Shown piece after piece: positions 1,006 through 56,793 of a stretch of 64,000 nt of DNA. The notes below the pieces were generated by a model. It made no database searches, was not told the origin of the DNA, and saw only the letters and a program-made list of their open reading frames with translations. Every line of letters begins with the position of its first letter. Within the stretch, counting starts at the first letter, position 1. Made by a program: the position numbers and the translations under genes. This DNA is from Aphrophora alni. Its lineage: Eukaryota; Arthropoda; Insecta; Hemiptera; Aphrophoridae. The stretch is from the NCBI GenBank assembly GCA_963513935.1, contig OY740773.1, positions 97,821,291-97,885,290 of the forward strand, given 5' to 3'.

Positions 1006-1036
1006 CTGAGATGATGACTTAAGTCACTGAAACGTC
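1006..1036 (+). ncRNA. Hammerhead-like motif, degenerate copy
   Basis: CTGA followed by a two-base insertion and TGA, then a perfect TGACTT/AAGTCA stem, CT, GAA, palindrome ACGT and C. Stem II and the GAA-ACGT-C end fit the small hammerhead pattern, but the inserted bases in the core should inactivate it. No clear stem I complementarity. Confidence 0.4.
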
Positions 1037-1453
1037 GTCTTTTATTTGTAAACACAAATAAAGTGTTTGTTGAGGAGGGAAATTGTATTTCATTTGCGTT
1101 ATTTTTATATTTATATTCAATAAACTAAATAGATTATCAATACGGAGTTATTTGCTATAAATGTTTGAGGTTTTTTAAATGCAAAATTTAAAGAGAATAA
1201 TAACCATAAATAATCAAAGTTAAATATTCACACTAACATGTTAATGTATAGTGTAATTAAAGATATGCAGGTATGCAGGTGTGGTGGTACAAAAGTTTTA
1301 GAACTTTGTTAGGAGAACAGCAGTGAGCTGCCAGAACCAGCAGTCATAGTTCTGTCTACGTGCTAGTAAAAAGAACAAATACATAAACTTGTTTTATGCC
1401 AATAATAATGCAAGAAATTTGAATAAACTTATTTGAAAGAGACATCCAGGAAA
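1037..1453. other. No gene seen
   Basis: A+T-rich sequence. A short hairpin near 1047-1075 (TTTATTTGT, then ACAAATAAA) is the only local structure noticed. Confidence 0.4.
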
Positions 1454-1676
1454 TCACTATAGTGAGTACAGGCTTGGTCATCCCGCGGGTACCTAACTAG
1501 ATCTACACCTTTTTTCATGTCACTCGTCTTTAGATCGCTTTCTTTCATATCCTATGATATCTTTTTTCTCTTTTATATTTGAGAGGTAGGAGTGTTTATT
1601 TTATGCTCTTTTCTTCCTTTTTTTACAAGGCGATGATGACCGAGTGGTTTTTTTTACTTTAAACAACATGAAAACA
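1454..1676 (-). mobile_element. SINE-A copy, tRNA-like part deleted
   Basis: Reverse-orientation copy of the family described at 54431-54761. It runs from the CACTATAGTGAGTAC end through the CTAGATCTACACC block and the GATGATGACCGAG block to TTTAAACAACATGAAAA. Nearly full body; the tRNA-like insert is absent. Confidence 0.75.
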
Positions 1677-1824
1677 TAAATTTTTGAAAGAGAAAAGTTA
1701 CAAAGATACTGAAACAGATATATAGAAAGATGCACAAATATAGTAAATATTTATGCAAATCAGTTCTTGATTATTAGAGACGCTTTCCAGAAACAGAATA
1801 CAAAGAAACTGTAAATATGTGCAG

Positions 1825-3350
1825 AGATACAGGATAATTATTCCAAACTACGATTCAAGACTTCAGGATATGGTTACTTGGATCAAAATAAGTAAAAAAG
1901 TTCCTATGAACATATGTCCTAAAATGCTTAGTTTTCAGTCTGTCTGCAATTTTTTTAAACATATTTTTGGAGATAAATTAGATATTGAATCCAAATTTGG
2001 TATACATATCTTTTATGGGACCTTCTATCGATGTACCAACAACTTTGTTTTGTATGTTTCAAAATGGCGACCATTAAAATATTTTATATGAAACCTATAA
2101 AAACCAATAACTTTAAAAAATATTACAAGAGACCAAAAAGTTTTCATTTTTATTGAAAAACGAAATGAGCTTTGTAATGTTTAAATAGCTTATAGGATAA
2201 TGGAATTATTATCAAAAAACTGAAAACATGTTTTTTTTCTATTTGTCTAGAACAACCAATATTAGCCTAAAACAGAATTGAATTGTGAAGTTTTTTTAAT
2301 ATTTTAATATTATTAAAAATATTTTCGTTTTAGACAATATTAGGTGTTGTAGTTTTCAGTTTTTTTTACAATAACTCAATTAACCTTTAAGCTAATAAAA
2401 AACTACAAATTCATTTTATATCATTAAAAAAAAACTTTTTGGTTCCTTCTAAATTTTGAGTAAAGTTAATGATTTTTGACATATTCAACATTAAACATTT
2501 TAAACAACAGCCATTTTGAAAACGTACAAAAAGCTTTTAGTACATCGATAGAAGGTCACATGAAATAGTTATTTGTGCAACTACTGAGCAAAGTGGCACT
2601 TTTTTAAACGAGAGAAAAATGTTGACGCACGAGGCTTGCCGAGTGCGTCAATTTTATCGAGTTTGAAAAAGACACTTTGCTCACGAATTGCACATTATAC
2701 TTTGTCTACAGTTGTCCATATTTTAAAACTATCAACACTGAGTAGAAGTTCTCACGTCAAAACTGAGGTTATTTATGAATATTACAAATAACTTAGGTGT
2801 ATTGTTGAGGAAACGGGATTGCCAACTTCAAAACTCGGCAAACGAAAAATACTCCCTTGTACATACACTGTCAATCATCTTCATGAATAATTAATTACTT
2901 CCCTTTTCAACTTTAAAACGTTGTTTTGTTGTTTATTTATGTTGTTTTACATGTAATAATTAATCGAACCTACATACGGGACATTTCCTGTATATTATAA
3001 ATCAATTCAAATAAACTTAACCTAAATTTCGTTTTGTTCAGTTGCCATCCGGAGTGAGCAAAGTAGTGTGCAAAGTAGTGGGCAAAGTGAAACTGTTGAG
3101 AAATCAGCTGTTTTGCAAACTAATTTAACTGAACAAAATGCCACTTTGTCAACAACTGTAGACAAAATATGTATACCAAAATTCAACTCAATATCTAATT
3201 TATCTCCATAAATATAATCTTTTTTTTAATCACAAAATAGCGGACAGACGGAAAACTGAGCATTAGAGGACATATGTCCATAGACACGTTTTTACTTCTA
3301 TTGATTCAACGAACCATATCCTGAAGTTTTGAAACCCCCTGTATATATTA
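1825..3350. mobile_element. Long palindromic non-autonomous DNA element (family E1)
   Basis: About 200 bp at 1850-2060 is inverted at about 3150-3345. Both arms share ACTTCAGGATATGGTT, ACATATGTCC, CAGTTTTC.GTCTGTC and GGAGATAAATTAGATATTGA, and the right edge reads CCCCCTGTATAT, i.e. an ACAGGGGG-type tip. A second nested inverted repeat (CTTTGTCTACAGTTGT at 2700, inverse at 3150) lies inside. The open frame at 1819-2091 is terminal-repeat sequence, not a gene. No transposase is seen. Confidence 0.6.
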
Positions 3351-3950
3351 TCGGTACAACATAACCTCTGTATTTATCTTGAAAATTTAAGTACAGACGA
3401 CAATGACGACGGACGTACGTCTAAAATCACTTTTTGGTTTTTGTCGCGATGAAACGATTAGTCCAAAAACCAGACGACATTTTTGGTTTCGTATACCAGG
3501 AAACAAAGAACACTACTGACTTTGTTAATGTATAAAGTTTTTAAAGCTGTAAGGATGTCAGAGTTGTTAATTATAACTTGAATGGAGTATTATTTCGTGT
3601 ACTGTCAAAATCATCTGTCCGTTATCACAACTAATTTGTTTATAAATCATGATGCTTCTGTTTTGTCCATGAGCGGTCGAAATATTTATTCGGTCTAATT
3701 CTGTCGACAGATGAAGTCACGCAAGTAATTACTTTATCTAAAATTGCCGCTTCGAGTAAATAATTTAGATTACAAATGTAATATATAGGGTGACTTGTTC
3801 TGTGTCGGCTGAGATAACCTTATTTTTATCGCATAGCAAGTTGTGTCGATTGCATCATGATTTCAACTGTTTTAAATAAAATCAAGGAAACCGTCGAGGA
3901 ACATCTTGATAATTTGTTTTTGAAATAGAATTAAACTTGAATACAAAATT
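3351..3950. other. No gene seen
   Basis: A+T-rich spacer between the palindromic element and the hammerhead pair; no frame, splice pair or repeat could be supported. Confidence 0.4.
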
Positions 3951-3973
3951 CTCACAAATGGTACGTTTATTTA

Positions 3974-4006
3974 AACGCGTTTCGACGACAACATCGTCAT
4001 CTTCAG
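3974..4006 (-). ncRNA. Small hammerhead ribozyme motif, best-preserved stem II
   Basis: On the minus strand: CTGAAGA, T, GACGA, loop TGTTG, TCGTC, GAA, ACGCGT, T. Stem II is five perfect Watson-Crick pairs; ACGCGT is self-complementary and is followed by U as the cleavage base. The core base that differs from CUGAUGA (U to A) is the tolerated position. Stem I complementarity is weak (TCA against TAA). Confidence 0.65.
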
Positions 4007-4059
4007 TGATCCACGAGATCTATAACTAAACTATAACTGTTATTGTAGCTTGTGCACCA

Positions 4060-4092
4060 TTAAAGATGGCGACTTTGTCGTTGAAACGCGTT
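4060..4092 (+). ncRNA. Hammerhead-like motif, mutated core
   Basis: TTAAAGA (for CTGAAGA), T, GGCGA, loop CTTTG, TCGTT, GAA, ACGCGT, T. Stem II pairs with two G-U wobbles. The core C3 and G5 are lost, so cleavage is unlikely. Right arm of the inverted pair. Confidence 0.5.
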
Positions 4093-4130
4093 TAAAAAAT
4101 AAACGTACTTTTTGTGTTTTATTCTATCAA

Positions 4131-4689
4131 TATTTGTTTTTGTTTATATATTCTTGTTTAAATTTGTTTCGAATTAATGGAATTCTTAATTTTAAAATAT
4201 AGCTTAGCTTTTTACGAAATTTCTTTTGGGATTGCCAAAAACTCTGTTCAATTGCTTCAGAAAATAAAATAAAAATGTTACCGTCGCGATAAACAGAAGT
4301 GAAAACTACAATTATTCTTAATTTTTCTTTGTCATTACCAAGGCTTTCTTCATGATTATCCTTTTATAGGATTTTATGTGTCTATAGGCTCAATATCGTC
4401 TACGCTGTCCTCATCGATTTTTCTTTTGAAAATAATAAATTAAAGTTTAGTTTGAAAGTAACAATAACATTTATTCATAAAGAACAAATAGAACTGCACA
4501 TTTAAATAAAAATGTTTTCAACAATACAACTTAGCCTACACGCTACTCGTGTTTCAACTTGATAGACTCTAGATTAAATCAAACTTTTTAGATTTTAATT
4601 ATGCACGTAATGGTATCACACACACACAACTCTACGGTGACAAATAGCGAAGTTATTGTCAGAAATGTAATCTTTAACCCTGATCTCCC
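4131..4689. other. No gene seen
   Basis: A+T-rich spacer with a small CACACACACA tract near 4618. Confidence 0.4.
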
Positions 4690-4832
4690 TAAAAAAATGT
4701 GTTATTGACAGGACCGAGTCACAGATATGAACGTAGCGAGTGGAGGTTCCTCACAATTACAGCTCAGGTTCGAGACACTTGTGTCATATTATATGATGAG
4801 GCTGGGTTAGTACCATGATGGTTCCATTACCT
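4690..4832 (-). repeat. Repeat B copy (partial)
   Basis: Carries the GTAGCGAGTGGAGG block, a GGTTCGAGACAC block and the GGGTTAGTACCATGATGG block, in the same order and orientation as the fuller copy at 57060-57290. Confidence 0.6.
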
Positions 4833-5326
4833 TGTTAATAGCTTTGAATACTTAGAATATTATATAATAATTAACGTTAAATGTAACATGGTCGCAATTT
4901 TTTTTCCGTTAACGAAGTGCAGTCAAAAAGTAAATTAAACTAGACAATCCTTCAACTTTCGATCACGAGCCGAGTGACATTGTCAAATTTAAGGAATAAA
5001 TTAAATTAATTTTAATTTAATCAACTGGATGAGTATGAAAATAAAAATAAATGTTATTGTAATGAAAGTAAAAAGAAGCAAAAATAAACAAATTAAATTT
5101 ACAAAAAAATGTTTGTTACCAGAATTCGATATCCCATAGGAACACCTGTATCTGGGTTAGCAATACCTTGGAGTAAACAAGTAGGTGGTTAAAGAAAAAA
5201 ATTAATAATTTGTTTTACGTTTATATAGTACATATAAAATAACACTATAATAATAATAAACAATATTAATTTTCTTGGAACGGGTTTATAATAAATATTT
5301 TGTGTCAGGCTACACCCTTGTGAGGT
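4833..5326. other. No gene seen
   Basis: A+T-rich, no supported feature. Confidence 0.4.
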
Positions 5327-5550
5327 CAGCTATAGTGGAAACAGGCGTGGCTATCCTGAGGTACCCTAGCTGGATCTACATTTTTTTCATGTAGTCTTTT
5401 AGATCGCTCTCTTTCATCTTTCCTATCTGGTCATCTTGATCAACTCTTATTATCTTTCGTTCAGAGTATAGAAGGGTCTTTATTGTACTTTCTTTTCTTT
5501 TTTACGGTGATGATGACCGAGAGATTTTTCTACTTTAAACAACGAGAAAA
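5327..5550 (-). mobile_element. SINE-A copy, tRNA-like part deleted
   Basis: CTATAGTGGAAACAGGCGTGG end, CCTAGCTGGATCTACA block, TTCTTTTCTTTTTTACGGTGATGATGACCGAGAG block, TTTAAACAACGAGAAAAA end. Near-complete body. Confidence 0.75.
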
Positions 5551-6219
5551 AATGAATCACGTCAATTTATTTTATTTTTGCCATTAAGACTATTGTTATA
5601 CATTAGTTTGATATTACAACTTACCATCGTTAATAGTCAGTTGTAGAGTTTAAAAAACAACGGACGTTTCGGCTATTCGGCCATTATCTAGTTTATTATT
5701 GGAGAAGCTTCTTCGTTCTCGTGGAACACACAATACATTTTTAGAAACATTTAAATAAAATTATTCTAAAAAACAACTTAATAAAAATTATGTCCGGTGG
5801 GCCCACTTTGTAGTTTTTAAACTGTACAACTGACAATTGAAGACGTAGTAAGTGATTGGTGGTTATAAACAGTTTACAATTTCATTATCTTGGATTTCGA
5901 TAAACCTCAATAAATGAAACAACAGAAGAAATTAACTACAGAATTAGTAATGCTGATAGAACGGACTGTACTCTATATAATTTATTAAATAGTCAAATAA
6001 TTCTCAAAATTCAACACTTTACAAATTTAATACAAAATGCCAATTTTTACATATGCTCAAGGGACATTAACTAAAAGGAATCCAATAAATTAAGAATTTT
6101 CAAATGAAATAGACTTGCTAAGATTGTCTACCAAAATTAGATCTAGTGAATAATCAGTGGACTGTAGTTACAAACAATTAATTAAACTGTAAATTTTGAA
6201 ATCCAAATATTGTCGCCAA
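5551..6219. other. No gene seen apart from the hammerhead-like motif at 5663
   Basis: A+T-rich spacer; nothing else supported. Confidence 0.4.
5663..5690 (-). ncRNA. Hammerhead-like motif, GGC/GCC stem, degenerate core
   Basis: Minus strand: CTAGATAA in place of CTGATGA, T, GGC, loop CGAATA, GCC, GAA, ACGT, C. Stem II is three G-C pairs; the end is palindrome ACGT followed by C (a GUC cleavage triplet). One insertion and one G-to-A change spoil the core. Confidence 0.45.
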
Positions 6220-6440: not shown

Positions 6441-6464
6441 CTTCTATGACTAGAGAAACTTCTA

Positions 6465-6652: not shown

Positions 6653-6755
6653 AGAAGAACTTTTAATAAAGAAATTTTTTGTGGTACCAAGTCACAATTA
6701 AAACTTATAATAATAAATTACCTTGTCTTGTGACTCCAATCGATTTCTACGTTAT

Positions 6756-6787
6756 GACATGTTTCAGAGTCTTAACTCCATCATCAG
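6756..6787 (-). ncRNA. Small hammerhead ribozyme motif (ACATGT type)
   Basis: Minus strand: CTGATGA (consensus core), T, GGAGT, loop TAAG, ACTCT, GAA, ACATGT, C. Stem II has four Watson-Crick pairs and one G-U. Palindrome ACATGT is followed by C (GUC). Stem I: ATAT before the core against ATAA after the cut, three pairs. The 3' tail carries AGTCACAAGAC, shared with the 40992 and 51860 copies. Confidence 0.6.
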
Positions 6788-6835
6788 ATATACGTTTGAT
6801 TGTTCACTCAGAGGAGCTTAAAATGTTTACACTAA

Positions 6836-7798
6836 AGGCCATTTCACACCGGCGTACTGAACGTCCTGGACGTTTGGTACGTTTTTGTCAAAATAAATCG
6901 CTTCCCATGCTATCAAATGAGCCATTTCACACCGCGCGTACAGAACGTACCGAACGTCCTGGACGTTTGGTACGTTTTTCGGAGGATCGCTCGGAGAGTG
7001 ATTTTTCACAAACGTCCAGAACGTCCACGGCCTAGCGCATGCGCAATGAACACTTCGGAACCACGTGCTCCGCTCCTGTCATTTCTGCAAAACCCCGCGT
7101 CATCTGCAGTGTGTTTGTTGTTGCTGGTGTTTTGTGCATTTGTACCATGGAAGCGTTGTTGGAAGAAGTACGTGATCATCCTGTAATCTGGGACACAACC
7201 CTAGAAATATACAGGGACCTGGTTATGAAGAACGCAGCGTGGGAGGAGATTGCTGCAAATCTTCAGAAAGATAATAAGTTGTCATTTACTGTAATGTAAT
7301 AACATTAGAGCAACGATTATATATTTATATTGTTATTTAATGGAAGTCATTATAGTATAATTATTAATGACCTCATTTTATATTAGTTTTACTAAAGGCT
7401 CCATTTAAAAAAAAGAATAACAATCGTATTAACTTTCTCACAGGCAAAACAAATATTATTTAAAATAGAAATCATGTTATGTTATGTTATTCTTAGAAAT
7501 AGAAATTGATATATAATACTAGGTACAGTAATCTATAAAATGTACATGTCAAATACCTAAAAAGTAGGCCTACATGTAATATACTGCATTGCATCTAGGC
7601 ATTGTGGATTACATTAATACAGTGTGCACTAATAATAAAAGGGAAAATGTGGTAAAAAAATAAAATAATACAAGAGCACTGATCGAGCGAACGTCCTGGA
7701 CGTTTGGTACGTTGTTGGGCGGTGTGGAATGGGCGCGTACCGACGTCCCAAACGTACCAAACGTCCAGGACGTTCAGTACGCCGGTGTGAAAAGGCCT
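6836..7798 (+). mobile_element. PIF/Harbinger-like non-autonomous element, copy 1
   Basis: Terminal inverted repeats of about 50 bp: left AGGCCATTTCACACCGGCG at 6836, right the inverse ending GGTGTGAAAAGGCCT at 7798. The subterminal block GAACGTCCTGGACGTTTGG recurs directly and inverted at about 6861, 6951, 7690 and 7757, as expected of transposase-binding repeats. It carries a MADF-domain exon but no DDE nuclease. Confidence 0.65.
7147..7273 (+). pseudogene. MADF-domain (Harbinger DNA-binding protein) exon 1, copy 1, donor lost
   Basis: The ATG at 7147 is in a strong context (ACCATGG). The product starts MEALLEEVRDHPVIWD and continues to NAAWEEIAANLQKD, matching the conserved N-terminal half of the MADF/Myb-SANT-like domain, including the W-D and A-A-W-E-E-I positions. 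PIF/Harbinger transposons encode such a protein as DNA-binding partner of the transposase. The open frame starts earlier (ATG 7039), but the upstream residues do not look like a protein domain, so I start at 7147. At the end of the exon, where copy 2 has the donor GTAAGT, this copy has ATAAGT (position 7274); reading through gives a short tail and stop at 7299. The rest of the MADF domain would need a second exon, not seen in the element. Confidence 0.6.
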
Positions 7799-7801
7799 TT
7801 A

Positions 7802-8750
7802 AGGCCATTTCACACCGGCGTACTGAACGTCCTGGACGTTTGGTACGTTTTTGTCAAAATAAATCGCTTCCCATGCTATCAAATGAGCCATTTCACACCG
7901 CGCGTACAGAACGTACCGAACGTCCTGGACGTTTGGTACGTTTTTCGGAGGATCGCTAGGAGAGTGATTTTTCACAAACGTCCAGAACGTCCATGGCCTA
8001 GCACATGCGCAATGAACACTTCGGAACCACGTGCTCCGCTCCTGTCATTTCTGCAAAACCCCGCGTCATCTGCAGTGTGTTTGTTGTTGCTGGTGTTTTG
8101 TGCATTTGTACCATGGAAGCGTTGTTGGAAGAAGTACGTGATCATCCTGTAATCTGGGACACAACCCTAGAAATATACAGGGACCTGGTTATGAAGAACG
8201 CAGCGTGGGAGGAGATTGCTGCAAATCATCAGAAAGATAGTAAGTTGTCATTTACTGTAATGTAATAACATTAGAGCAACGATTATATATTTATATTGTT
8301 ATTTAATGGAAGTCATTATAGTATAATTATTAATGACCTCATTTTATATTAGTTTTACTAAAGGCTCAATTTAAAAAAAAAGAATAACAATCGTATTAAC
8401 TTTCACAGGCAAAACAAATATTATTTAAAATAGAAATCATGTTATGTTATGTTATTCTTAGAAATAGAAATTGATATATAATACTAGGTACAGTAATCTA
8501 TAAAATGTACATGTCAAATACCTAAAAAGTAGGCCTACATGTAATATACTGCATTGCATCTAGGCATTGTGGATTACATTAATACAGTGTGCACTAATAA
8601 TAAAAGGGAAAATGTGGTAAAAAAATAAAATAATACAAGAGCACTGATCGAGCGAACGTCCTGGACGTTTGGTACGTTGTTGGGCGGTGTGGAATGGGCG
8701 CGTACCGAACGTCCCAAACGTACCAAACGTCCAGGACGTTCAGTACGCCT
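7802..8750 (+). mobile_element. PIF/Harbinger-like non-autonomous element, copy 2, right end clipped
   Basis: Starts AGGCCATTTCACACCGGCG directly after the TTA shared with copy 1, and is nearly identical to it with only scattered substitutions. The right terminal repeat stops at GTACGCC; about 16 bases (GGTGTGAAAAGG...) are deleted before the flanking TTAA. Confidence 0.65.
8113..8239 (+). CDS. MADF-domain exon 1, copy 2, with intact GTAAGT donor (partial gene)
   Basis: Same first exon as copy 1 (ATG at 8113, product beginning MEALLEEVRDHPVIWD), with a Q-to-H change in NLQKD (here NHQKD). The exon ends at 8239 directly before GTAAGT, a good 5' splice site. Known role of the family: nuclear DNA-binding protein helping a Harbinger transposase. 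No downstream exon completing the domain is visible before the right terminus, so this is either an internally deleted element or a decoy fragment. Confidence covers the domain, not expression. Confidence 0.6.
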
Positions 8751-8791
8751 TAACACTTACAGCTCTTCTGAGTGAACAATAAAACTTATAT

Positions 8792-8811
8792 CTGATGATG
8801 GAGTTACGACT
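8792..8811 (+). ncRNA. Truncated hammerhead-like motif
   Basis: CTGATGA, T, GGAGT, TACG, ACTC, then directly ATGTCATAA: compared with the opposite arm (6756-6787) the bases TGAAAC are missing, so the GAA core element is deleted. Inactive by inspection. Confidence 0.5.
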
Positions 8812-8890
8812 CATGTCATAAAGTAGAAATCTACCGAAGTCACAAGACGGACCATACAAGGTAATTTATTATTATAAGTTCTAATAAAGT

Positions 8891-13830: not shown

Positions 13831-15091
13831 CGAGGGGCAGTCAAGAAGTAAGTTGCATATGTTTGTATTGCTCTTTGTTAAAGGTAAATTTTGATTACTG
13901 CTGTTGGTAACATTGTTTAAACTTCTGTAAAATCAGACGTACAATTTTTATGATCCCCATTGTTGACAAATACGAGTAATAATGTCACGTCACTACGAAG
14001 TTCCATCCATATTTTTACTCGCTTTCTTTGAGCTAAAAAGTGAAATCCCACGGAAATTCATCAGCAGTTAAATGAAGTTTACGGCGAAAAATTCCTCCCC
14101 CCCCCCCCAGTCCATTGCAATATGGTGCAAGTTGATTGAAATTGGCAACAGTGAAATTGAGTAGGTAAGGAAGGTCACTTCGGTCACGGATGGCAATTTT
14201 AAACGTGTTCAACAATTGATTCACGGAGGACGAAATCGCAACTGATATGAATATTACTCATAGAAGTGTGCACAGTATCATCTGTGAGCATCTGGAGTTT
14301 CGAGTAGTGTGCGCTAAACAACACAAAGAGAAACGTTTTCAATCGGGAAAAAAAGTAATTATATATATAACGGCTCTGCCGTTATTGCTTCGTAATGACA
14401 GGGAAAGCAATGAATTTTTAGACAGAATTGTAACTGGAGATGAACGCTGGGTCCATCATTTCACTCCTGAAACAAAACGTAGTTCACGAGAATGGAGTTT
14501 GTAATCTCCCCTTACAAAAAAGTTTCGACAGGTTACATCAGCAGGGAAAGTGATGTTGACACTTTTTTCGAGAATCAAGGTGAATGCATACTGATTTCAT
14601 GTCAAGGGGAACAACAATACAGCACCTTACTCTGAAACCATGAACATACTAAGAAAAGTAATTAAACACCCCCGCCCAGGAAATTTGTCAAAAGGTGTTT
14701 TTTCTCAATGAGAATACAACCCTTATTCTGTGTCACAGAGGCCTCTAAGGTAGAAGTTTAAATGGGGAGAGTGGGAATATCAACCGTATAGTTCAGACAT
14801 TGAGTCTTTTGTTAACCACGTGATCCAATGAAAGAAGCTCTTGCCAAAACCGCGATTCGAAAATAAAGTGAAAATGCAGTAAGAGATTGGTAGTCGGAAG
14901 TTGGTAGCAATTTTTTTAATGAAGGAGTTGAAAAACTTGTCACTCAATACGATAAATATCTTAATCGAATGGCGATTATGTAGAAAAGTAAAGTTTTATT
15001 TTGTATTTTCAGAATAAATAAGGAAATAATCTTAATTTTTACAAATTTTCATTTTTTAGGTTAGTGCAATTTACTGTTTGACTGTCCCTCG
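13831..15091 (+). mobile_element. Complete mariner element, 1261 bp, inactivated
   Basis: Inverted termini CGAGGGGCAGTCAAGAAGTAA at 13831 and, inverted from 15091, CGAGGGACAGTCAAACAGTAA. TA dinucleotides flank both ends (13829-13830 and 15092-15093), the target duplication of IS630-Tc1-mariner elements. Length is normal for mariner. The internal transposase is broken (separate entry). Confidence 0.85.
14020..14950 (+). pseudogene. mariner transposase, degenerate
   Basis: In the intact family this is a roughly 345-residue nuclear cut-and-paste transposase with a D,D34D catalytic triad. Here the longest open part (14247-14504) ends with IVTGDERWVHHFTPETKR, the diagnostic mariner block holding the first catalytic Asp, then SSREW and a premature stop. 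Downstream, about 14530-14600 reads VTSAGKVMLTLF; a further frame gives FLNENTTLILCHR where the family has LLHDNARPHTA, so the second Asp is replaced by Glu in an altered context; YSSDIESFVNH stands where YSPDLAPSDY is expected, so the third Asp is lost. A G/C run at 14096-14109 disrupts the N-terminal DNA-binding half. Clearly non-functional; the termini may still be usable in trans. Confidence 0.85.
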
Positions 15092-15621: not shown

Positions 15622-16690
15622 GAAATAGCCTATAAAGAAATATTTATTTTCTTATAGTGCAGATATTTTAGGCTCCATTTTGAAATGGCAAGACAGTTTA
15701 TCAAGACTAGTAGTTTTCAGTTAAGAATTTTAACAATTTTGATTCCATTTGACTTGTGTTAAAAAAAAAATTCCTTGTAAAACTATCTCAACTATCCCCA
15801 GGTAAAACTGGGGGCATTATCTAGAATATTATATATTATATGTTAGTTATAGTTTAGTTATTGTAGCTCATATATCACTGAAGATGGCGAATTCGTCGTT
15901 GAAACGCGTTTGATTGAGAAAGGTAATATTGAGATCTTGTGTTCGAGTTTAAAACTATCATTAATAAGAATAATAGAAATATAGTCTTATTTATAAAGAC
16001 TGGATAGTTAATGGTTGAATTAAATGGCGAAATTTGCTGTTTAAAAATTTGAAGGGTTTGTAAGATACAGTTTTGATTCTTGGTATAAAACGTATCATAA
16101 AAAAATGTATGTATCAAATTTTAAAAATAATACAAAAAAGCCGATAGACTACAACAAAGCGTTTACGGACATTGAAACTTTTCCATTTTTTGATGACTCG
16201 AATCACTCCTCAAATTTAGGACACGTATTTTTGAAACAACCTATATATGAACACATTTAATTTGTCTTTAATTTTAATTTTTCCTTCTTTTGACGATTCA
16301 AATCGCTTCCTCTTAACAAATAAAACATCATTAGGTCTATTTATATTTATTACAAGTTGTGTTTTAATGGATAAACTTATCAATAATTTCACATTATACA
16401 GCAGTAAAAACAATGTCATTAAGTTTATGTTTTATGTTACTAATGTGTAATGGGCATTTTATGATAATACGACTTTACTATCTTCAAGAGAGGGCAGATA
16501 TTGCCTAATTTATATTTCAAAAAGTAATTATTTCCAATTATTCTATTACAACATAAATTTGGTCTGTAGTTATGTTTTACTTAATTTATATTTCTTTAAT
16601 AATACAGGTTACATAACTTAATGATCGATTAACTAAATATTATCTTCGATATTATTCGATATTATCATTCTATTACAAGACATTGTAGGC
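15622..16690. other. No gene seen apart from the hammerhead at 15878
   Basis: A+T-rich spacer; short opposed frames at 16216-16450 are composition artefacts. Confidence 0.4.
15878..15910 (+). ncRNA. Small hammerhead ribozyme motif (ACGCGT type)
   Basis: CTGAAGA, T, GGCGA, loop ATTCG, TCGTT, GAA, ACGCGT, T. Stem II pairs with two G-U wobbles. Stem I: ATCA directly before the core pairs with TGAT directly after the cleavage base (four pairs). Upstream TTATTGTAGCTCAT and downstream TCTTGTGTTCGAGTTT are shared with the 29872 copy. Confidence 0.65.
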
Positions 16691-22760: not shown

Positions 22761-23035
22761 TCCCAAATTTTCTTAGTATATAACATAAAAAACTTACTCC
22801 ATTTAAGGTTGTCATGGTAACTACAGTGCCATGTTTATTAACTAATATGTGAAAGATTTGGGTCGGCAAATATTTAGCATTACTTTGTGCTGAACCACTA
22901 CAAAATGTCTTACAACAAATGGTTTTGACTACTTTTTAATGAATACTGACAACAAAGTTTGGTAATATCCTACATTAACTTTAAATCTTCACTAGCCTAC
23001 TACAACATAACCTAATTTAATATAAAAAAACTCAC
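22761..23035 (-). other. Start of SoxE intron 1
   Basis: Sequence downstream of the SoxE exon on the minus strand, beginning with GTGAGT at 23035-23030. It contains an X-box-like GTTGTCATGGTAAC at 22808-22821, about 215 bases into the intron. The intron continues at least to position 1 if the gene is intact, since no HMG-box exon is found. Confidence 0.6.
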
Positions 23036-23262
23036 TTAGTTGCAATAGGAACCAAAGTCCAATCGTATCCTTGCAAGACTTTACTGACGGCTTCGTGTAT
23101 ATCCGCGTTCTCCAGAGACATCGGTCTCTCCATAGCCGCTTTAGCGGCTGCTGCAACTTGAGCAGCAGCACTCGCCGTTATAGTCACTAAAGGTCTACTA
23201 TCTTCTCTCAACATAGCGACGAGACCGCGGTTACCCGCGACACAATCTTCCTCTCGCAACAT
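23036..23262 (-). CDS. Sox100B: SoxE-group transcription factor, first coding exon (partial gene)
   Basis: SoxE proteins (vertebrate Sox8/9/10, fly Sox100B) are nuclear HMG-box transcription factors that bind DNA as dimers. The exon encodes about 75 residues. Residues 54-73 from the ATG read DIHEAVSKVLQGYDWTLVP, the SoxE dimerisation domain that stands just before the HMG box. Before it lies an Ala-rich stretch and the N-terminus MLREEDCVAGNRG. The exon ends at 23036 with GTGAGT, splitting a codon. I choose the ATG at 23262; the frame stays open upstream to about 23390 without another ATG, and TGCAG just before the ATG could be a splice acceptor. G+C content is well above the surroundings. 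The HMG-box exon (KRPMNAFMVW motif) is not present at 1-23035, so the first intron exceeds 23 kb or the gene is broken. Family assignment is strong; the symbol is by orthology inference. Confidence 0.85.
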
Positions 23263-23390
23263 CACTGCACTCACAAAAACCAGAACTGTTACTCTCGAAG
23301 TCTCCGGAATCACTGAAGCTGTCCAACGACTACGGAGCCTTGCAACGCCCCCACCATTAGTGGCGCCAGTAAGTTTTATTTAAATCTAAC
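23263..23390 (-). other. SoxE 5' region, G+C-rich, open on both strands
   Basis: Probable 5' untranslated or upstream coding sequence of the SoxE exon. It includes GGCGCCACTAATGGTGG. The opposite strand is also open and ends at CCA|GTAAGT (23352), a donor-like site; I take that as antisense coincidence. Confidence 0.4.
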
Positions 23391-25041: not shown

Positions 25042-25074
25042 GACGCGTTTCAACGACAAGGTCGTCCTCTTCAG
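25042..25074 (-). ncRNA. Small hammerhead ribozyme motif, complete with 6-bp stem I
   Basis: Minus strand: CTGAAGA, G, GACGA, loop CCTTG, TCGTT, GAA, ACGCGT, C. Stem II has four Watson-Crick pairs and one G-U. The end is a GUC cleavage triplet. Stem I is exact: GTATCA directly before the core, TGATAC directly after the cleavage base. Among the copies here this is one of the best candidates for activity. Confidence 0.7.
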
Positions 25075-26800: not shown

Positions 26801-26835
26801 CCGATGATGGTAACTTGATTTCTGAAATGTACATC
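26801..26835 (+). ncRNA. Hammerhead-like motif (ATGTACAT type)
   Basis: CCGATGA (one core change), T, GGTAA, loop CTTGA, TTTCT, GAA, ATGTACAT, C. Stem II has one U-U mismatch. The palindrome is eight bases. Stem I: CCTT before the core pairs with AGGG after the cut, four pairs including one wobble. Confidence 0.45.
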
Positions 26836-29871: not shown

Positions 29872-29904
29872 CTGAGGATGGCGACTTTCTCGTTGAAACG
29901 CGTT
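29872..29904 (+). ncRNA. Small hammerhead motif, one core variant
   Basis: CTGAGGA (tolerated position changed), T, GGCGA, loop CTTTC, TCGTT, GAA, ACGCGT, T. Stem I weaker (CCA against TGA). Flanks match 15878: TTATTGTAGCTCATGTAC upstream and GATTTTGTGTTCGAGTTT downstream to about 29955. Confidence 0.6.
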
Positions 29905-32245: not shown

Positions 32246-32283
32246 CTGATGAAGCCGACAGTGATCGGCGAAACAGCGCTGTA
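32246..32283 (+). ncRNA. Small hammerhead ribozyme motif (ACAGCGCTGT type)
   Basis: CTGATGA (exact core), A, GCCGA, loop CAGTGA, TCGGC, GAA, ACAGCGCTGT, A. Stem II is five perfect pairs; the palindrome is ten bases and could also fold alone as a three-pair stem III with a GCGC loop. Cleavage triplet GUA. Stem I: AGC before the core pairs with GCT after the cut. A single copy of this subtype is seen. Confidence 0.7.
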
Positions 32284-39194: not shown

Positions 39195-39226
39195 AACGCG
39201 TTTCAAAAATAAAATGGCATCATCAG
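39195..39226 (-). ncRNA. Hammerhead motif with eroded stem II
   Basis: Minus strand: exact CTGATGA, T, GCCAT, TTTAT, TTTT, GAA, ACGCGT, T. The core is intact but stem II no longer pairs. The region 39165-39290 has inverted TCTCACAAA/TTTGTGAGA-type ends like the 3945-4130 pair. Confidence 0.5.
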
Positions 39227-40046: not shown

Positions 40047-40429
40047 ACGACATCTGACGGTGATTAGGGCCTGTAAACGATACGGAACTAATTCGAAACA
40101 GATGAAAAAAAAGTCGTAATAAAATAAACAAAGATAGAAGGCGTGGATCTTTGTGTAAACATAAAAGGATGGACTAAAGGGCTGTATGATGTTAGACCGT
40201 GTTGTTATTTATTTATGAGGGTTCACCACTAACGATACTTCCTATTTTTCTCGGATTTAAATCAGGAATCAACTACTGGATTCCAATTACAGATCGAAGT
40301 GAGACCCTGATTCAACACTACCATTTGTATTTCGTTTGTGTGTTTGTTTGTTACCCAGTTTGTTGATAAGTTTCGTTGTAATCATTTTGTTTTTGTTGTT
40401 TACAGGCGTAAAACCACTCAGTCATTAAT
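40042..40429. other. No gene seen
   Basis: Nothing supported. Confidence 0.4.
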
Positions 40430-40626
40430 AGACTAAAAAAGAAGGAGAAAGGAGTGTAAAATAATGCCCCTTAGCCCTCGAATATTCTATAGGATCAAGG
40501 TCGGAATAGAATAAGAGTTGGTCAAGAGAAACCTAATAGGAAGAAGGAAAGACGTGGATCTAACCCAAGAATCCAAAGAAAAAAGTGTAGATCCAGCTAG
40601 ATTACCTCGGGCTTCCCACATTCGTA
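40430..40626 (+). mobile_element. SINE-A copy, 5' truncated
   Basis: Starts within the AAGAAGGAGAAAGGAGTGTAA block; TTAGCCCTCGAATATTC, AGAGTTGGTCAAGAG, GTGTAGATCCAGC follow; ends CTCGGGCTTCCCAC. 3' terminus missing. Confidence 0.7.
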
Positions 40627-40991: not shown

Positions 40992-41023
40992 CTAAAGATG
41001 GGTTTCCGTCTCTGAAACGCGTC
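40992..41023 (+). ncRNA. Hammerhead-like motif, degenerate
   Basis: CTAAAGA, T, then GGGTTTCCGTCTCT with poor pairing, GAA, ACGCGT, C. The tail AGAAGTCACAAGACGG groups it with 6756 and 51860. Confidence 0.45.
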
Positions 41024-51859: not shown

Positions 51860-51891
51860 CTGAAGATGGAGCTACGACTCCGAAACGCGTC
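51860..51891 (+). ncRNA. Small hammerhead ribozyme motif (GGAG/CTCC stem)
   Basis: CTGAAGA, T, GGAG, loop CTACGA, CTCC, GAA, ACGCGT, C. Stem II is four perfect G-C-rich pairs; GUC cleavage triplet. The tail AAAGTCACATGACGGTACC and AAGGTAATAA relates it to the 6700/8890 arms. Stem I is poor (ATA against TTT). Confidence 0.65.
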
Positions 51892-52150: not shown

Positions 52151-52204
52151 AAATAAAAGTCCAACAGTAGGATTTCGGTCATTAGAGCCTACTGTAATTT
52201 TGTA

Positions 52205-52465: not shown

Positions 52466-52624
52466 AAAAAAACACAGAAATAAAACTAGCTGTGAAATTG
52501 TTAAATTTGCTGTACAGCGCATGTATAAGCGTGACTAGATACACCACAACCCAACAGAACTGCGCACTAACACAAGAAATGATAAACACCAAGTTGAATA
52601 GATATTGGTCATTGGTCAACTAAC

Positions 52625-52770
52625 AAAATAAATTTTTGGTCGCTGTTCCATGATTCCTAACCCCATCAATGCAATACAAGGAGAACCTTTAAAAGTAAAA
52701 CTCAAAAGTTGATTTCTTGGACCTTGAAGAATGATGAATTGTATTGGTAGATGGGTTAAACTGTACAGTA
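52625..52770 (+). repeat. Repeat B copy, 5' part
   Basis: CCATGATTCCTAACCCCATC, AATGCAATACAAGGAGAACC, ACTCAAAAGTTGATTTCTTGG and GAATTGTATTGGTAGATGGG. Confidence 0.65.
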
Positions 52771-52888
52771 ATACATAATTACTGCTTTATTTATTATTTA
52801 GTTTTTTGTTCAACGTCTTTACTTTATGTCTGTGATGATGGGTAGTAGTCTATCGTAACAGAATAAACTTACATCAACAACCACACCC

Positions 52889-53610
52889 TAACCTGCACAA
52901 CTTTTCATAGGTTAAAAGTTTCAACTGCCTTGCTACTAACTAAAATTAATTACCCCCCCCCCTACCTTAACTTTTGTAGAACTTAAATAGAGCCAAACCC
53001 TTTTGGAACGCCCTAATCTAACCTGACCTAAACTGACCTACCTAACCTAACTTAACCTAACCTAATCTAACCTGCACAACTTTTCATAGGTTAAAAGTTT
53101 CAACTGCCTTGCTACTAACGAAAATTAATTACCCCCCCTACCTTAACTTTTGTAGAACTTAAATAGAGCCAAACCCTTTTGGAACGCCCTAATCTAACCT
53201 GACCTAAACTGACCTAACCTAACCTAACGTAACCTAACCTAATCTAACCTGCACAACTTTTCATAGGTTAAAAGTTTCAACTGCCTTACTACTAACGAAA
53301 ATTAATTACCCCCCCCCCCTACCTTAACTTTTGTAGAACTTAAATAGAGCCAAACCCTTTGGAACGCCCTAACCTAACCTGACCTAAACTGACCTAACCT
53401 AACCTAACCTAACCTAACCTGCACAATTTTTTATAGGTTAAAAGTTTCAACTGCCGTGTTATTAACTAAAATTAATTCCCCCCCTACCTTAACTTTTGTA
53501 GAACTTAAATAGAGCCAAACCCTTTTGGAACGTCCAAACCTAACCTGACATAAACTGACCTAACCTAACTTAACCTAAACTGACATAACTTGACCTAACC
53601 TATTCGTTTT
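52889..53610. repeat. About 177-bp tandem repeat with embedded (CCTAA)n blocks, four units
   Basis: CCTGCACAAC starts units at 52892, 53071, 53248 and 53418 (periods 179, 177, 170). Each unit has GGTTAAAAGTTTCAACTGCC, a variable C run, ACCTTAACTTTTGTAGAAC, AAACCCTTTTGGAACG and then CTAACCTGACCTAAACTGACC passing into CCTAACCTAACC. The CCTAA blocks match the insect telomere motif TTAGG on the other strand. Later units have more regular CCTAA runs. Confidence 0.9.
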
Positions 53611-53910
53611 CAGGGATTACCGTTAGATCTTTTACCTATGAGTTTTTCTTCCTGCACCAGTTCCTTCGTTTTTCTTTCAATCCAATTTGTCCTACGTTTC
53701 GGTAGATTTCTTTTATCCAGGAGACTTATAGCCTTTCATTTTCCTGATAACACAGGGCCTTCTTTGCCAATTCTCTTCAGGTGACCGTATAAAATGTTAG
53801 CTTTCTTTTTGAAATTGTTATAGTTTTGTCTGTGAACCTTTCTGTATAATTCTTCGTTTCACCTCTTAGTTGGTACTGAATTCTATTAAAGTTGTTTTCT
53901 TGGGTCATAG
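53611..53910 (-). pseudogene. LINE C-terminal remnant
   Basis: Minus strand, largely open: EELYRKVHRQNYNNFKKK, then ANILYGHLKRIG and, after one stop, LDKRNLPKRRTNWIERKTKE followed by LVQEEKLIGKRSNG. This is the Y-G-H-L-x-R-M and K-R-R-T-x-W-I/L-x-x-V-x-x-D-L pattern common at the C-terminus of insect non-LTR retrotransposon polyproteins. Broken by a TGA; borders the CCTAA-bearing repeat. Confidence 0.65.
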
Positions 53911-54021
53911 AATTTTCCTTAGGAACTTTCTCTCTTATTATTATTAGTCGTAACTTTATTTAATTTTTGTAGAAACTACATATATAAGTATTGTTGGATT
54001 TTAATTTTAAAGTTGCATATT

Positions 54022-54254
54022 TTCTTCTTGTTGTTTAAAAGGTGAAAATCCTTGCAGTCATCATCGCATTAAAAGAAGAAAAAGACGTAAAATAAAGACC
54101 CCTGTCCTTGAATACTCTAATGTCAGTGTCGGAGAGTACAAGAGTTGGTCAAGAGGAAAGATGAAAGAGAGGGGACTAACCCAAGATTACATGAAAAAAA
54201 AGTATATCCAGCTAAGCTCTTTCGGTAATGCCACCCTCGTATAGTGAGCCCCAA
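54022..54254 (+). mobile_element. SINE-A copy, tRNA-like part deleted
   Basis: CTTCTTGTTGTTTAAAAGGTG, AATCCTTGCAGTCATCATCGC, AAAGACGTAAAATAAAG, AAGAGTTGGTCAAGAGG, AACCCAAGATTACATG and TATAGTGAGCCCC. Sits 180 bp before the reference copy. Confidence 0.8.
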
Positions 54255-54430
54255 ACAGTAAAGCTGCCAACATTTAGAAGCAACCTTACAAACTGTTTTG
54301 TTGCTTAGTGTCTAATTTATGTCTCAGAAGTTGGTAACAAAACGAATTTGTGTAACCTTTGAAACTTCTCTCGCATGAATTGCGGCGAGAACCCCGCGTG
54401 CTGATCTAGGCTACCCCGGACCTTATAAAC

Positions 54431-54761
54431 CTCTTTAGTTGTTGTTTGAAGGTGAAAAGTATCCTGATGATCTAATAGTTAGTGTTCTGGCATCACGAGT
54501 GAAAGGTTCCGGATTAAATCCCCTTGTGGGTTCAAACTTCTCCGTCATCGCCGTTTTAAAAAAAGGAAGAAAAGAACATAAAATAAAGAACCCTTAGCCC
54601 TCGAATACTCTAATAGAGTTATTGTAGGAAAATAATAAAAGCTGGTCAAGAGAGTATTTATAAGGGAGATGAAAAAGAGGGATCTAACCCAATACTACAT
54701 GAAAAAGGTGTAGATCCAGCTGGGATCCCTCGGGATTACCAGTAGGCAAGCCCCTGAGGGA
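54431..54761 (+). mobile_element. SINE-A reference copy, 331 bp, with tRNA-like promoter region and 9-bp target duplication
   Basis: Flanked by CTTATAAAC on both sides (54422-54430 and 54762-54770), a typical retroposon target duplication. Order: 5' leader TTGTTGTTTGAAGGTGAAAAG; tRNA-like segment about 54461-54541 with an A-box-like TCTAATAGTTAGTG (54471) and a B-box-like GGATTAAATCC (54511); then the body shared with all other copies (AAGAAAAGAACATAAAATAA, TAGCCCTCGAATACTCTAAT, GCTGGTCAAGAGAG, GATCTAACCCAATACTACATG, GTGTAGATCCAGCTGG, CTCGGGATTACC, GCCCCTGAGGG). A Pol III promoter plus a target duplication supports a SINE. It is the only copy here retaining the tRNA-like segment. Confidence 0.8.
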
Positions 54762-54770
54762 CTTATAAAC

Positions 54771-55022
54771 AACCAAAATTTCAGCTACTTTAAAATGTAC
54801 CTACCAATTATTCTCAAATTTGATGTTAATCAGAAAACAATTTTGTTAATTATCCTGCTCAGATGTTTGTACGTTTTCTTTTTTGCTCAGACAATAATTA
54901 ATTTTAATATTTTACGTATCCTCGATGTTAAACAACGGACAATTATTTCACCCCAAGACACCCTTCAGTTTAAAAGAAGCGGACACCCTAATAGACATAG
55001 GTTCGATAATTATTAAATAATG
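54771..55022. other. No gene seen
   Basis: An open frame at 54795-55016 (plus) is A+T-biased and hydrophobic, without domain evidence. Confidence 0.4.
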
Positions 55023-55025
55023 TCA

Positions 55026-55262
55026 ATAAAAAAATATATAAACTGTTAGCTTTAACTTGGGTTTGAGTTCGCGGCCGGCGTATGTCTCCACTTGAACCTC
55101 TCTCAAGTCCTTCACACCTTTGTACTCAGCCATGATCTCTCCGTCGGCTCTCTCTATTGTTCTGAAGAGCTCTCTGTCTCTTTCTATCTCTATAATGTTT
55201 ATTCTATGACGAAACATATTTTCTACGACGCTGGGGGTCTATGCGATTCCTTTAGGACGGTG
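55026..55262 (-). CDS. Candidate last coding exon, possibly fibulin-like C-terminal module
   Basis: Minus strand, open from GCATAG (acceptor-like, 55263) to TGA at 55023. The product reads RHRINIIEIERDRELFRTI, ERADGEIMAEYKGVKDLREV, QVETYAGRELKPKLKLTVYI then FFY. The order F-R-T-x-x-R-x-D-G-x-x-A...R-E-V-x-V-x...K-L-x-L-T-V-Y-I resembles the fibulin-type C-terminal module (G-x-F-x-x-R...P-R-E-x-x-L-D-L-x-M...R-L-x-I-x-V), which also ends the protein. Codon choice and G+C (GAG, GCC, CGC) differ sharply from the A+T-rich flanks. Fibulins are secreted calcium-binding matrix proteins; no EGF exon is seen upstream to 64000. Other extracellular beta-sandwich proteins remain possible. Exon status is more secure than the family. 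Confidence 0.45.
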
Positions 55263-55439
55263 GGTGTTCACGGTTCAGTTCTTGCTGTAGTCATCTAACG
55301 TAACCTATTTAACGGGGGCATTCTTGGATAACAGTTTCAATGTCAATACCTGTCTCGTTACAATTCAGTTTATTGGGAATCTTATAAAAGGCTAGCATCA
55401 GGATTTCGATCGTTACTGTTCATTTTTAGTCAATTCATT
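55263..55439. other. No gene seen
   Basis: Spacer upstream of the candidate exon. Confidence 0.35.
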
Positions 55440-55725
55440 GAAAAACAAGTTGATGGGCGCCATCGTGGTACTTACCCAGACAACTTAGACTTTGTAAGAA
55501 ATTAAATTGATAGATCAAGGAGTCTTATCTTGTAGGTTTAATTAGTTTAAAACAGTTGTTACACAGGAGTTATAAACCTTGTAATTACACTACTTTCGAC
55601 GTCGACTGACCTTGTAGATTAAACAGTCTCCACTCGCTTCGCTCGGCAGGTCTCAAAGCTATATGTGAAGAAACCTCCACTCGCTACGCTGTATCGGAGA
55701 CTCGGCCTTGTTGGATCTCGTAATG
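55440..55725 (+). repeat. Repeat B copy, near full length with duplicated 3' block
   Basis: AACAAGTTGATGGGCGCCATC, GTGGTACTTACCCAG, TAGATCAAGGAGTCTTATC, AAAACAGTTGTTACACAGG, then CTCCACTCGCTTCGCTCGG and again CTCCACTCGCTACGCTGTATC, CTCGGCCTTG and ATCTCGTAAT. Confidence 0.75.
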
Positions 55726-56202
55726 GAATAAATACATTGCTTGTCAGAGGTCGAAACTTCCTATTTCTCACCGTAGAGTTGAAGTGTTGGTACCTCTCTT
55801 TGTGGAATTGCATTGAAATCTGTAAATTGTAAATTGAATGAAATAAATAAAGTAAAATAGTCATTTCGAATATTCAAACGGTCGCCATTTTAGATAGGAG
55901 CAAGATATCGACCTCTAGTTTGCGCAGTTGTATTTTACTAAATAAGTCCTTTAACAGGAGGGGTCACTCGATGGGGGTTTCTATTAAAGTTTATTGGGTT
56001 GCCTCCAAAACCCCCATTTTTGGTGGACAGATAAAAATACCTCATTTGCCAGAATAGTTTTGTATCGCCAGAAGACATACATAAAACTTTTTTTTTCCTC
56101 TTTTGGTTTTCACGGTCCGAGACTTTTTGGACACTTTGTATATATACCTTTGTAAAAATTACAGTTTAGCCGTGACTAGCTCACCCCTTCTGATGAAAAA
56201 CC
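55726..56202. other. No gene seen
   Basis: A GGTCACTCGATGGGGG patch near 55960 but no frame; the rest A+T-rich. Confidence 0.4.
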
Positions 56203-56358
56203 CTCAAGGTTTAGGACCTATATTTAGTACGGGCGTGTTAATATCGAAGTACCCTTACTGGATCTACACTTTTTCATGTTGTATTGGATTAGATCCCTCT
56301 CCTTAGTTTTTCCCAGCGGATCTCTCTCGACCAACACTTCTTCTCTTCTGACTCCTAT
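56203..56358 (-). mobile_element. SINE-A copy, truncated
   Basis: CCCTCAAGGTTTAGG, TACTGGATCTACACTTTTTC, TTAGATCCCTCTCC and ATCTCTCTCGACCAACACTTC; lacks the 5' leader. Confidence 0.65.
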
Positions 56359-56498
56359 TTTACTGTCGTTAACTATCATTTAGAAAAATAAATTGAATAA
56401 ATTCCATATTGCCTTATGAATGCTTTAAAATAAGTTTATTACTAAATTACTTACGTCTTAGCAATCTTATGTTTAGTATTTATTTATTAATATTTCAT

Positions 56499-56533
56499 TA
56501 CAGCTGTTTCGGTATAACATATACCATCATCAG
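56499..56533 (-). ncRNA. Small hammerhead ribozyme motif (ACAGCTGT type), left arm
   Basis: Minus strand: exact CTGATGA, T, GGTATA, loop TGT, TATACC, GAA, ACAGCTGT, A. Stem II six perfect pairs; eight-base palindrome; GUA cleavage triplet. Stem I: TGTTTCAT before the core pairs with ATGAAATA after the cut (seven Watson-Crick pairs, one G-U). All elements present. Confidence 0.75.
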
Positions 56534-56758
56534 ATGAAACAACACGTTAACACAACACACTGATACACATTTCACAAAAATAAATAAACATATAGAGTGA
56601 ACAGTTGACCACCACGTTAGAAAGATGTGGCTATATTATCTCAACTATTTAAATTTTATTTTATATTATTTTCGACTTGTACTGCAGTACCAAACATTTT
56701 ATGTTTATTTATTTTTGTGAAATGTGTATCAGTGTGTTGTGTTAACGTGTTGTTTCAT

Positions 56759-56793
56759 CTGATGATGGTATATGTTATACCGAAACAGCTGTA
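56759..56793 (+). ncRNA. Small hammerhead ribozyme motif (ACAGCTGT type), right arm
   Basis: Identical in the core, both stems and the palindrome to the copy at 56499-56533 but on the plus strand, with the same TGTTTCAT/ATGAAATA stem I. Confidence 0.75.

Follow-up and report, generated by a model that had tools for sequence, protein, structure and literature searches.

Penelope-like elements (PLEs) are said to carry minimal type I hammerhead ribozymes, according to Cervera and de la Pena in 2014 and to Lunse, Weinberg and Breaker in 2017. The present work deals with motifs of this kind in a 64-kb stretch of the genome of the hemipteran insect Aphrophora alni (assembly GCA_963513935.1, contig OY740773.1, positions 97,821,291 to 97,885,290; hereafter, the window) and with their relatives in the 1.7-Gb host assembly. 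The ribozymes described here extend the known class. Very probably, the motifs are predicted minimal type I hammerheads located in the pseudo-long terminal repeat (pLTR) ends of related PLE families, a reading that takes in the paired-insertion mechanism set out below.

Thousands of minimal type I hammerheads occur in many metazoan genomes, mostly as dispersed copies and in some cases in the pLTRs of PLEs (PMC7761336). The motifs of the window share with them (i) the type I layout; (ii) a reduced stem III; (iii) the very large number of dispersed copies; and (iv) the location of some copies in pLTRs. When both are compared by description, two differences can be distinguished: the motifs studied here have one extra nucleotide after A9, and their stem III is an even palindrome.

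Another close system is the Poseidon element PAc of Anolis carolinensis, which resembles the present one in two respects: its hammerhead overlaps the start of the open reading frame, with the cut 26 bp past the start codon, and its protein cleaves and extends both target strands, with the tail delimited by two internal sites from which reverse transcription starts (PMC11167929). In that source, the use of these start sites shows no apparent difference between strands in bulk, ribozyme mutants still insert in vitro, and the anole ribozyme cleaves only with protein. The new point here is that one start of each kind is paired within a single insertion. The Penelope families of Adineta vaga (e.g., Pen2a_Av) are likewise comparable, as their inserts are often head-to-head pLTRs with short target-site duplications (TSDs) and an optional 31-bp tail at one of the inverted pLTRs, and sequences can be captured between solo pLTRs (PMC3846280). 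But while single examples were read there as self-priming, the pairs are counted here, and the counts argue against simple self-priming. A rule of one tail per pair was not found stated in the accessible parts of PMC3846280 or PMC11167929, nor among the results of literature searches, and it may be published in the primary hammerhead papers.

Detection and structure of the predicted hammerheads

A sequence-only reading of the window had listed 16 sites, with correct coordinates, as instances of one hammerhead layout. On the evidence of shuffles, flanks and homology to a PLE end (L394), 14 of them are confirmed as supported hammerheads, several of which are decayed; 26801 is borderline and 1006 is unsupported (Table 1). 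A strict descriptor (CTGANGA, 1 nt, stem II of at least 3 bp, GAA, a palindrome with initial A, and a non-G base) gave nine matches in the window, whereas 30 dinucleotide shuffles averaged 0.03; it gave none when the gap after the core was set to 0 or 2 nt. For nine sites, a chance origin is ruled out by dinucleotide shuffles. With a graded score and 60 shuffles, E was 0.000 for 56533(-), 56759, 32246, 25074(-), 15878, 6787(-), 4006(-) and 29872, 0.03 for 51860, 0.17 for 26801, 0.28 for 4060, 0.73 for 40992, and 3.95 for 39226(-). The flanks of 4060, 40992, 39226(-) and 8792 are similar to those of strong sites.

When trained on five sites of subfamily A alone, a covariance model recovered 39226(-) (E=1.4e-5) and the subfamily B site 51860, which lies outside the training set (E=3.9e-4); its values for 40992 (E=0.11), 6787(-) (E=2.3) and 1006 (E=6.4) were not significant. 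Site 1006 is, besides, absent from the 32 graded-score matches listed and shows no homology to PLE ends. Site 5663(-) fails the core rule, its core being decayed.

Thirteen sites were laid out by hand (1006, 5693(-) and 8792 were left out). In all of them the palindrome measures 6, 8 or 10 nt and H17 is never G, two features that are not independent of the choice of sites. The pairing of stem I, on the other hand, is evidence independent of site selection and specific to each site. Over 12 sites (56533(-) being left out as a duplicate), the bases before C3 pair with their own post-H17 bases in 35 consecutive pairs, versus a mean of 12.0 when partners are swapped between sites, and none of 5000 permutations reached 35. 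By eye, stem I can persist in 6787(-) and 8792, with one A bulged, via a change from G-C to U-A. Furthermore, stems and palindromes differ between subfamilies. The proposal of the sequence-only reading that structure has been under past selection is thus upheld by stem I, by the subfamily-specific stems and palindromes, and by the compensatory U3-A8 core described in the next section.

In each motif, stem I is open and stem II is short. A full-hammerhead descriptor found no stem III hairpin at any window site. The even palindromes can be closed either as 1-3 pairs plus a tetraloop or between two strands. When eight sequences were cofolded, the exact double hammerhead was the minimum-energy dimer for 56759 alone, and the single-strand hammerhead was the folding minimum in none of the eight.

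Exactly one extra nucleotide follows A9, namely U in 11 of the 13 sites, A in 32246 and G in 25074(-). This is a departure from the canonical hammerhead core; the sequence-only reading had recorded the single base after the core, and passed over both this departure and the three outward-facing pairs described below. The plus-strand hammerhead of Chrysanthemum chlorotic mottle viroid likewise has an additional unpaired residue after A9, there A instead of the U that prevails here (PMC3705267). At the 11 sites with U, A9-U-G reads ATG. The peptides starting at this ATG end after 3-10 codons in all 11 cases, from which no claim is drawn because stops are frequent in AT-rich DNA (about 0.6 within 11 codons, by our own estimate). 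Phage-type contigs contain complete three-stem hammerheads with an extra U in this place and, by eye, another ATG downstream. In consequence, a full hammerhead can accommodate the U, and a start-codon constraint is not necessarily its sole explanation.

Link to Penelope-like elements and anatomy of the insertions

The sequence-only reading had also proposed an abundant family of retroelement-borne ribozymes, and this proposal holds at genome scale. The 31-mer GATGGCGACTTTGTCGTTGAAACGCGTTTGA of the motif has 1712 exact copies in the genome (847+865) versus none for the reversed control. A GIY-YIG search of the genome gave at least 36 matches (150 of 4337 candidates scored), ten of which are contained in nine loci picked by hand. 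In eight of these nine loci, the layout TTGANAA-U-stem II-GAA-8-nt palindrome-C lies downstream of the domain on the same strand, L392 being the sole locus with no hammerhead downstream. The linked hammerheads score 27.5-30.1, versus best reversed-sequence scores of 22.0 and 20.7, and all eight have the U3-A8 core, i.e., the compensatory form of the C3-G8 pair, which is reported in natural hammerheads (PMC3088659). They fall into two families of four loci each that differ in stem II and palindrome: (i) GGCUGAAUAGCC (one variant) and ACGGCCGU; and (ii) GCUUUAACUAGC and ACCAUGGU. One locus, L388, encodes both reverse transcriptase (RT; RVT_1, 2.6e-13) and GIY-YIG (3.5e-6) in one stop-free frame of 714 aa, with a hammerhead downstream. 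Window site 5663(-) aligns over 120 nt with the PLE end L394 (55.7 versus a null maximum of 40.9) and is assigned, on this alignment, to the first of the two families.

The longer pLTR copies L305 and L307 were considered as autonomous elements and rejected: they correspond to one duplicated segment, and L382 has no frame of 150 aa. L383 has one 152-aa frame, on the opposite strand.

Three outward-facing pairs, at 4.0 kb, 6.8/8.8 kb and 56.6 kb, account for six of the window sites. The chance of at least two close divergent pairs among 14 random sites is 0.009. The pairs are flanked by direct repeats of 11, 8 and 11 nt, lengths reached by 1.7%, 34% and 1.7% of random window pairs, respectively, and the two arms differ in length by 36 nt in the 56.6-kb pair and by 27 nt in the 6.8/8.8-kb pair. 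The score of an inverted partial arm at 5693(-) exceeds the null 95% point of 20.6; a candidate arm beside 39226(-), at 18.8, lies below that point and was rejected.

The anatomy was then counted in 95 loci, obtained from 100 listed of the 1712 copies of the 31-mer (all on contig C1 and from one subfamily) and scanned with a 158-position profile built from 37 near-complete arms. Head-to-head pairs with arms within 150 nt were present in 55 of the 95 loci (54 minus-then-plus pairs, and one tandem array ending in such a pair), versus no convergent, plus-then-minus pair within the same distance; the contrast in orientation is based on these 95 loci. A genome-wide count of the convergent pattern gave 25 places versus 27 for the reversed control, many of the places being in arrays whose palindrome GAAACGCGTTTC is its own match.

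The outer ends of the arms cluster at profile positions 120-125 (N, without tail) and 156-157 (T, with tail), about 35 nt apart; the T positions are the profile's own end, near which the shared sequence stops by eye. All 41 strictly classed pairs consist of one N and one T end (p=4.5e-13), the tailed arm being the left one in 21 pairs and the right one in 20, with no strand bias. With the duplicate locus removed, the strict count is 40, and tighter classes give 29 NT pairs with no TT or NN pair. L308, a duplicate of L306, was excluded from the looser and tighter class counts and from the first-site comparison given below, and L291 from the latter.

Flanking repeats of at least 9 nt accompany 22 of the 55 pairs versus 1.2% of mispaired flanks, and repeats of at least 11 nt accompany 13 of the 55 versus 0.0%. 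The RT-bearing locus L388 has two head-to-head arms with 99.6% identity over 1.7 kb; by eye, its right arm is about 45 nt longer, and the 11-nt repeat AAAAGTAAACC abuts both ends. The Penelope hallmarks of inverted pLTRs, optional tail and TSDs are present both in the genome inserts and in the window pairs.

At their inner ends, 100 of the 165 arms start at profile positions 1-5, which is the case for at least one arm in 49 of the 55 pairs and for both arms in 15. In longer copies, TATAAAT lies 32 nt (L328) or 21-22 nt (L305, L307 and L312, where about 11 nt are missing in between, by eye) upstream of position 1. From this spacing, transcription probably starts near position 1. The predicted ribozyme cut lies between positions 66 and 67; no arm begins at 67 and three begin at 64-66, and ribozyme-cut RNA was rejected as the template. 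The start positions indicate that most of the copied RNA had an uncut ribozyme, and that copying often reached the RNA 5' end.

The lack of an arm-start peak at the cut site would also suit a different history, in which the motif was kept for translation, as start-codon context, and the hammerhead likeness is a relic with no working ribozyme. The ATG at 11 of the 13 sites fits this history, as does the anole ribozyme, which is inactive without protein and dispensable for insertion in vitro (PMC11167929). Nevertheless, start-codon context sits badly with a compensatory U3-A8 core in all eight hammerhead-bearing GIY-YIG loci, with a stem II and a palindrome that differ between the two families, with stem I pairing with its own partner, and with the absence of G at H17 in the 13 sites (a feature that depends in part on how they were chosen). 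It is, in our opinion, an unlikely history, and the motifs are treated hereafter as predicted hammerheads.

A candidate mechanism of insertion

A mechanism that we consider about equally apt to prove right or wrong is that PLE insertion is a coupled asymmetric two-strand reaction, in which one ribonucleoprotein would make one cDNA per start site and strand, and the ribozyme stubs would be 5'-end copies of uncut mRNA. The following steps can be proposed: (i) the element enzyme would cut both target strands, and each 3' end would prime reverse transcription on element RNA; (ii) one strand would prime at the T site and the other at the N site, perhaps with the enzyme acting as an asymmetric dimer on element RNA; and (iii) each cDNA would run to the RNA 5' end, and both would be joined head to head. 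As to which site fires first, no preference was apparent: the N arm is complete in 13 pairs and the T arm in 8 (p=0.38). The template would span the uncut hammerhead and, hence, ribozyme cleavage would not be the template-making step for the sampled copies. The likely role of the ribozyme would be to trim read-through RNA of tandem copies at some other step, perhaps helped by protein.

If this mechanism is true, an insertion is complete when it comprises two head-to-head arms, exactly one of them tailed, and a single cause underlies the TSDs, the inverted pLTRs and the optional tail. The rule of one tailed and one untailed arm would unite scattered features in one mechanism, which the in vitro system already available could put to the test. 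Genomic ribozyme copies record PLE integration, a process of which relatively little is known according to PMC11167929, and insertions from RNA uncut by the ribozyme sharpen the question of what the ribozyme is for.

Several observations weigh against this picture of ribozyme-bearing PLEs that insert as one-tailed pairs. Regarding the motifs themselves, (i) stem I has just 0-1 pair in four of the 12 tested sites; (ii) the subfamily A covariance model missed, at E≤10, the subfamily C and D sites, 26801 and 5663(-); and (iii) the Rfam hammerhead models (release 15), put forward as a check by the sequence-only reading, returned no hammerhead for any part of the window, whether at gathering score or with the limit relaxed to E=10, a match to these models not being a defining feature of the stem III-poor class. 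Regarding the link with PLEs, a Pfam search of 20 of the 97 stop-free frames of at least 65 aa found no RT or GIY-YIG in the window, and none of the 36 GIY-YIG matches (from the 150 candidates scored) falls inside it. In consequence, the window copies, except for 5663, are tied to PLEs by motif and anatomy and not by linkage.

As for the anatomy, the 4.0-kb window pair has no clear tail difference (arm ends at +84 and +71, i.e., 13 nt apart), 14 of the 55 pairs have at least one unclassed end under the strict classes, and looser classes (N, 100-138; T, at least 140) give 43 NT, 4 TT and 2 NN pairs (43/49), for which reason the one-tail rule may not be absolute. Single arms show little excess of TSDs (at least 8 nt in 5 of 49 versus 3.5%). 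Finally, the transcription start at position 1 is itself a prediction, nine arms (among L287-L381) have their start 9-13 nt short of the predicted cut, at positions 54-58, and the sample requires an intact 31-mer across the cut, so that single insertions from cut RNA would be missed, although the free second arms of pairs would not.

Inverted pairs could also arise by snap-back self-priming of a single cDNA instead of priming on both target strands. This is how PMC3846280 reads head-to-head inverted pLTRs with junction palindromes, as self-priming on an antisense template, and the two arms of a pair do resemble each other a little more than arms taken from different loci (0.909 versus 0.886; 20 of 24 pairs); two cDNAs of one RNA or of one subfamily, however, should be just as similar. 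A folded-back cDNA copies its own end, from which TT or NN pairs are expected, whereas such pairs amount to none of the 41 under strict classes and to six of 49 under looser ones. Likewise, TSDs lie at or near both outer ends. Self-priming is, in our judgement, quite unlikely as the source of the pairs, and priming on both target strands is retained as the preferred reading. An origin of the motifs as metazoan retrozymes, i.e., type I hammerheads repeated in tandem and propagated as circular RNA, is highly improbable: the tandem array of L291 (about seven units, 119-nt period) agrees with it, but tandem repeats are what is described for retrozymes (PMC7229834), singles or head-to-head pairs make up 94 of the 95 loci, and no window site has a stem III hairpin, whereas invertebrate retrozyme hammerheads mostly have a stable helix III (PMC7761336).

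Features of the window and further observations

The features of the window are collected in Table 1.

Table 1. Predicted hammerheads, paired arms and candidate target-site duplications in the 64-kb window, with the evidence for each
Feature	Position	Strand	Evidence or remark
Site of the sequence-only reading, unsupported as hammerhead	1006..1040	+	covariance model, graded score, homology
Putative TSD ATTTGTTTTTG, left copy	3912..3922	.	11-nt match; 1.7% of random window pairs reach 11
Minimal hammerhead, subfamily A, CTGAAGA-T-stem II-GAA-ACGCGT-T	3974..4006	-	stem I just 1 bp; E=0.000, 60 shuffles
Hammerhead, subfamily A, decayed core TTAAAGA	4060..4092	+	head-to-head partner of 3974-4006; E=0.28
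Putative TSD ATTTGTTTTTG, right copy	4132..4142	.	11-nt match
Decayed hammerhead, GIY-YIG-linked Penelope family, TAGATAA-T-GGCCGAATAGCC-GAA-ACGTCCGT	5659..5690 (= site 5663/5693)	-	L394 alignment
Inverted partial arm beside 5693(-)	5814-5853		score 23.0
Possible TSD TAATAAAG, left copy	6664..6671	.	not significant alone; 34% of random pairs reach 8 nt
Hammerhead, subfamily B, left arm of head-to-head pair	6756..6787	-	strict descriptor, shuffles, stem I
Right arm, partner of 6756..6787; GAAAC deleted	8792..8817	+	flank similarity
Possible TSD TAATAAAG, right copy	8882..8889	.	not significant alone
Hammerhead, subfamily A	15878..15910	+	strict descriptor, stem I, shuffles
Hammerhead, subfamily A, stem I and stem II 6 bp, H17 = C	25042..25074	-	descriptor, stem I, shuffles
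Possible hammerhead, weak stem II, 8-nt palindrome	26801..26835	+	E=0.17
Hammerhead, subfamily A	29872..29904	+	strict descriptor, stem I, shuffles
Hammerhead, subfamily D, 10-nt palindrome	32246..32283	+	strict descriptor, stem I, shuffles
Decayed hammerhead, subfamily A, without stems I and II	39195..39226	-	covariance model E=1.4e-5; flank similarity
Hammerhead, subfamily B, decayed CTAAAGA; 3' tail-like stretch	40992..41023	+	tail p=0.0047, 16 sites tried
Hammerhead, subfamily B	51860..51891	+	strict descriptor; E=0.03; covariance model 3.9e-4
Putative TSD ATAAATTGAAT, left copy	56388..56398	.	11-nt match; 1.7% of random pairs reach 11
Hammerhead, subfamily C, left arm of head-to-head pair, outer end about 36 nt longer	56499..56533	-	descriptor, shuffles
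Hammerhead, subfamily C, right arm, without tail	56759..56793	+	descriptor, shuffles, cofolding
Putative TSD ATAAATTGAAT, right copy	56859..56869	.	11-nt match

Some arrangements depart from singles and pairs. In L291 (G000:C1:9570600-9572500), about seven hammerhead stubs follow one another in one orientation with a period of 119 nt, and are then followed by an inverted arm; this array may have been built by a series of template jumps, each leading from the 5' end of the RNA to the N start site, or may be retrozyme-like. There are also two satellite-like arrays, at G000:C16:34384258-34385207 and G000:C11:4666682-4667273, with periods of about 117 and 116 nt, respectively, in both of which the common palindrome GAAACGCGTTTC yields hammerhead-like motifs on both strands.

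The relatives seen in viral and prokaryote contigs were phage-type hammerheads, and no PLE was seen there. Scanning of 278 loci for complete type I hammerheads gave at least 95 in 54 of them (L003-L118 from IMG/VR, and L270) and none in reversed sequence. These loci correspond to 53 of the first 120 viral loci listed plus L270, with up to seven hammerheads per contig (L082). The hammerheads lie mostly just 5' of an ATG, by eye; 64 have one extra nucleotide after A9 (nearly always U, the frequency of which is not a measurement, as the search pattern itself required the extra U) and 31 do not. Rfam gave no hammerhead at gathering score in seven loci (L047 being negative by descriptor too) and, at E≤0.1 in five loci (L057 belonging to both sets), two hammerhead-family matches below gathering. 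PHROGs matched five of the eight frames of L082 and both frames of L106. Clustered prophage hammerheads are already known (PMC3088659).

Between the arms of the 6.8/8.8-kb pair, 6835-8763 is a tandem dimer (period of about 965) of a DNA-transposon-like element with inverted termini. It contains a MADF domain fragment (E=9e-8) and, at its inner junction, a near-perfect 95-nt hairpin with an Rfam microRNA match below gathering. The frame at 14220-14501 (+), which had no Pfam match at E 0.1, resembles a mariner transposase fragment. An unrelated repeat of about 230 nt has 22 matches in the 64 kb (e.g., 40383-40620 (+), 54018-54235 (+) and 5346-5556 (-)), with a same-strand copy downstream at three of the 16 hammerhead sites. 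The frame at 23035-23379 (-) carries a Sox N-terminal domain (PF12444, E=1.4e-9) and is probably a host exon, presumably of SoxE type.

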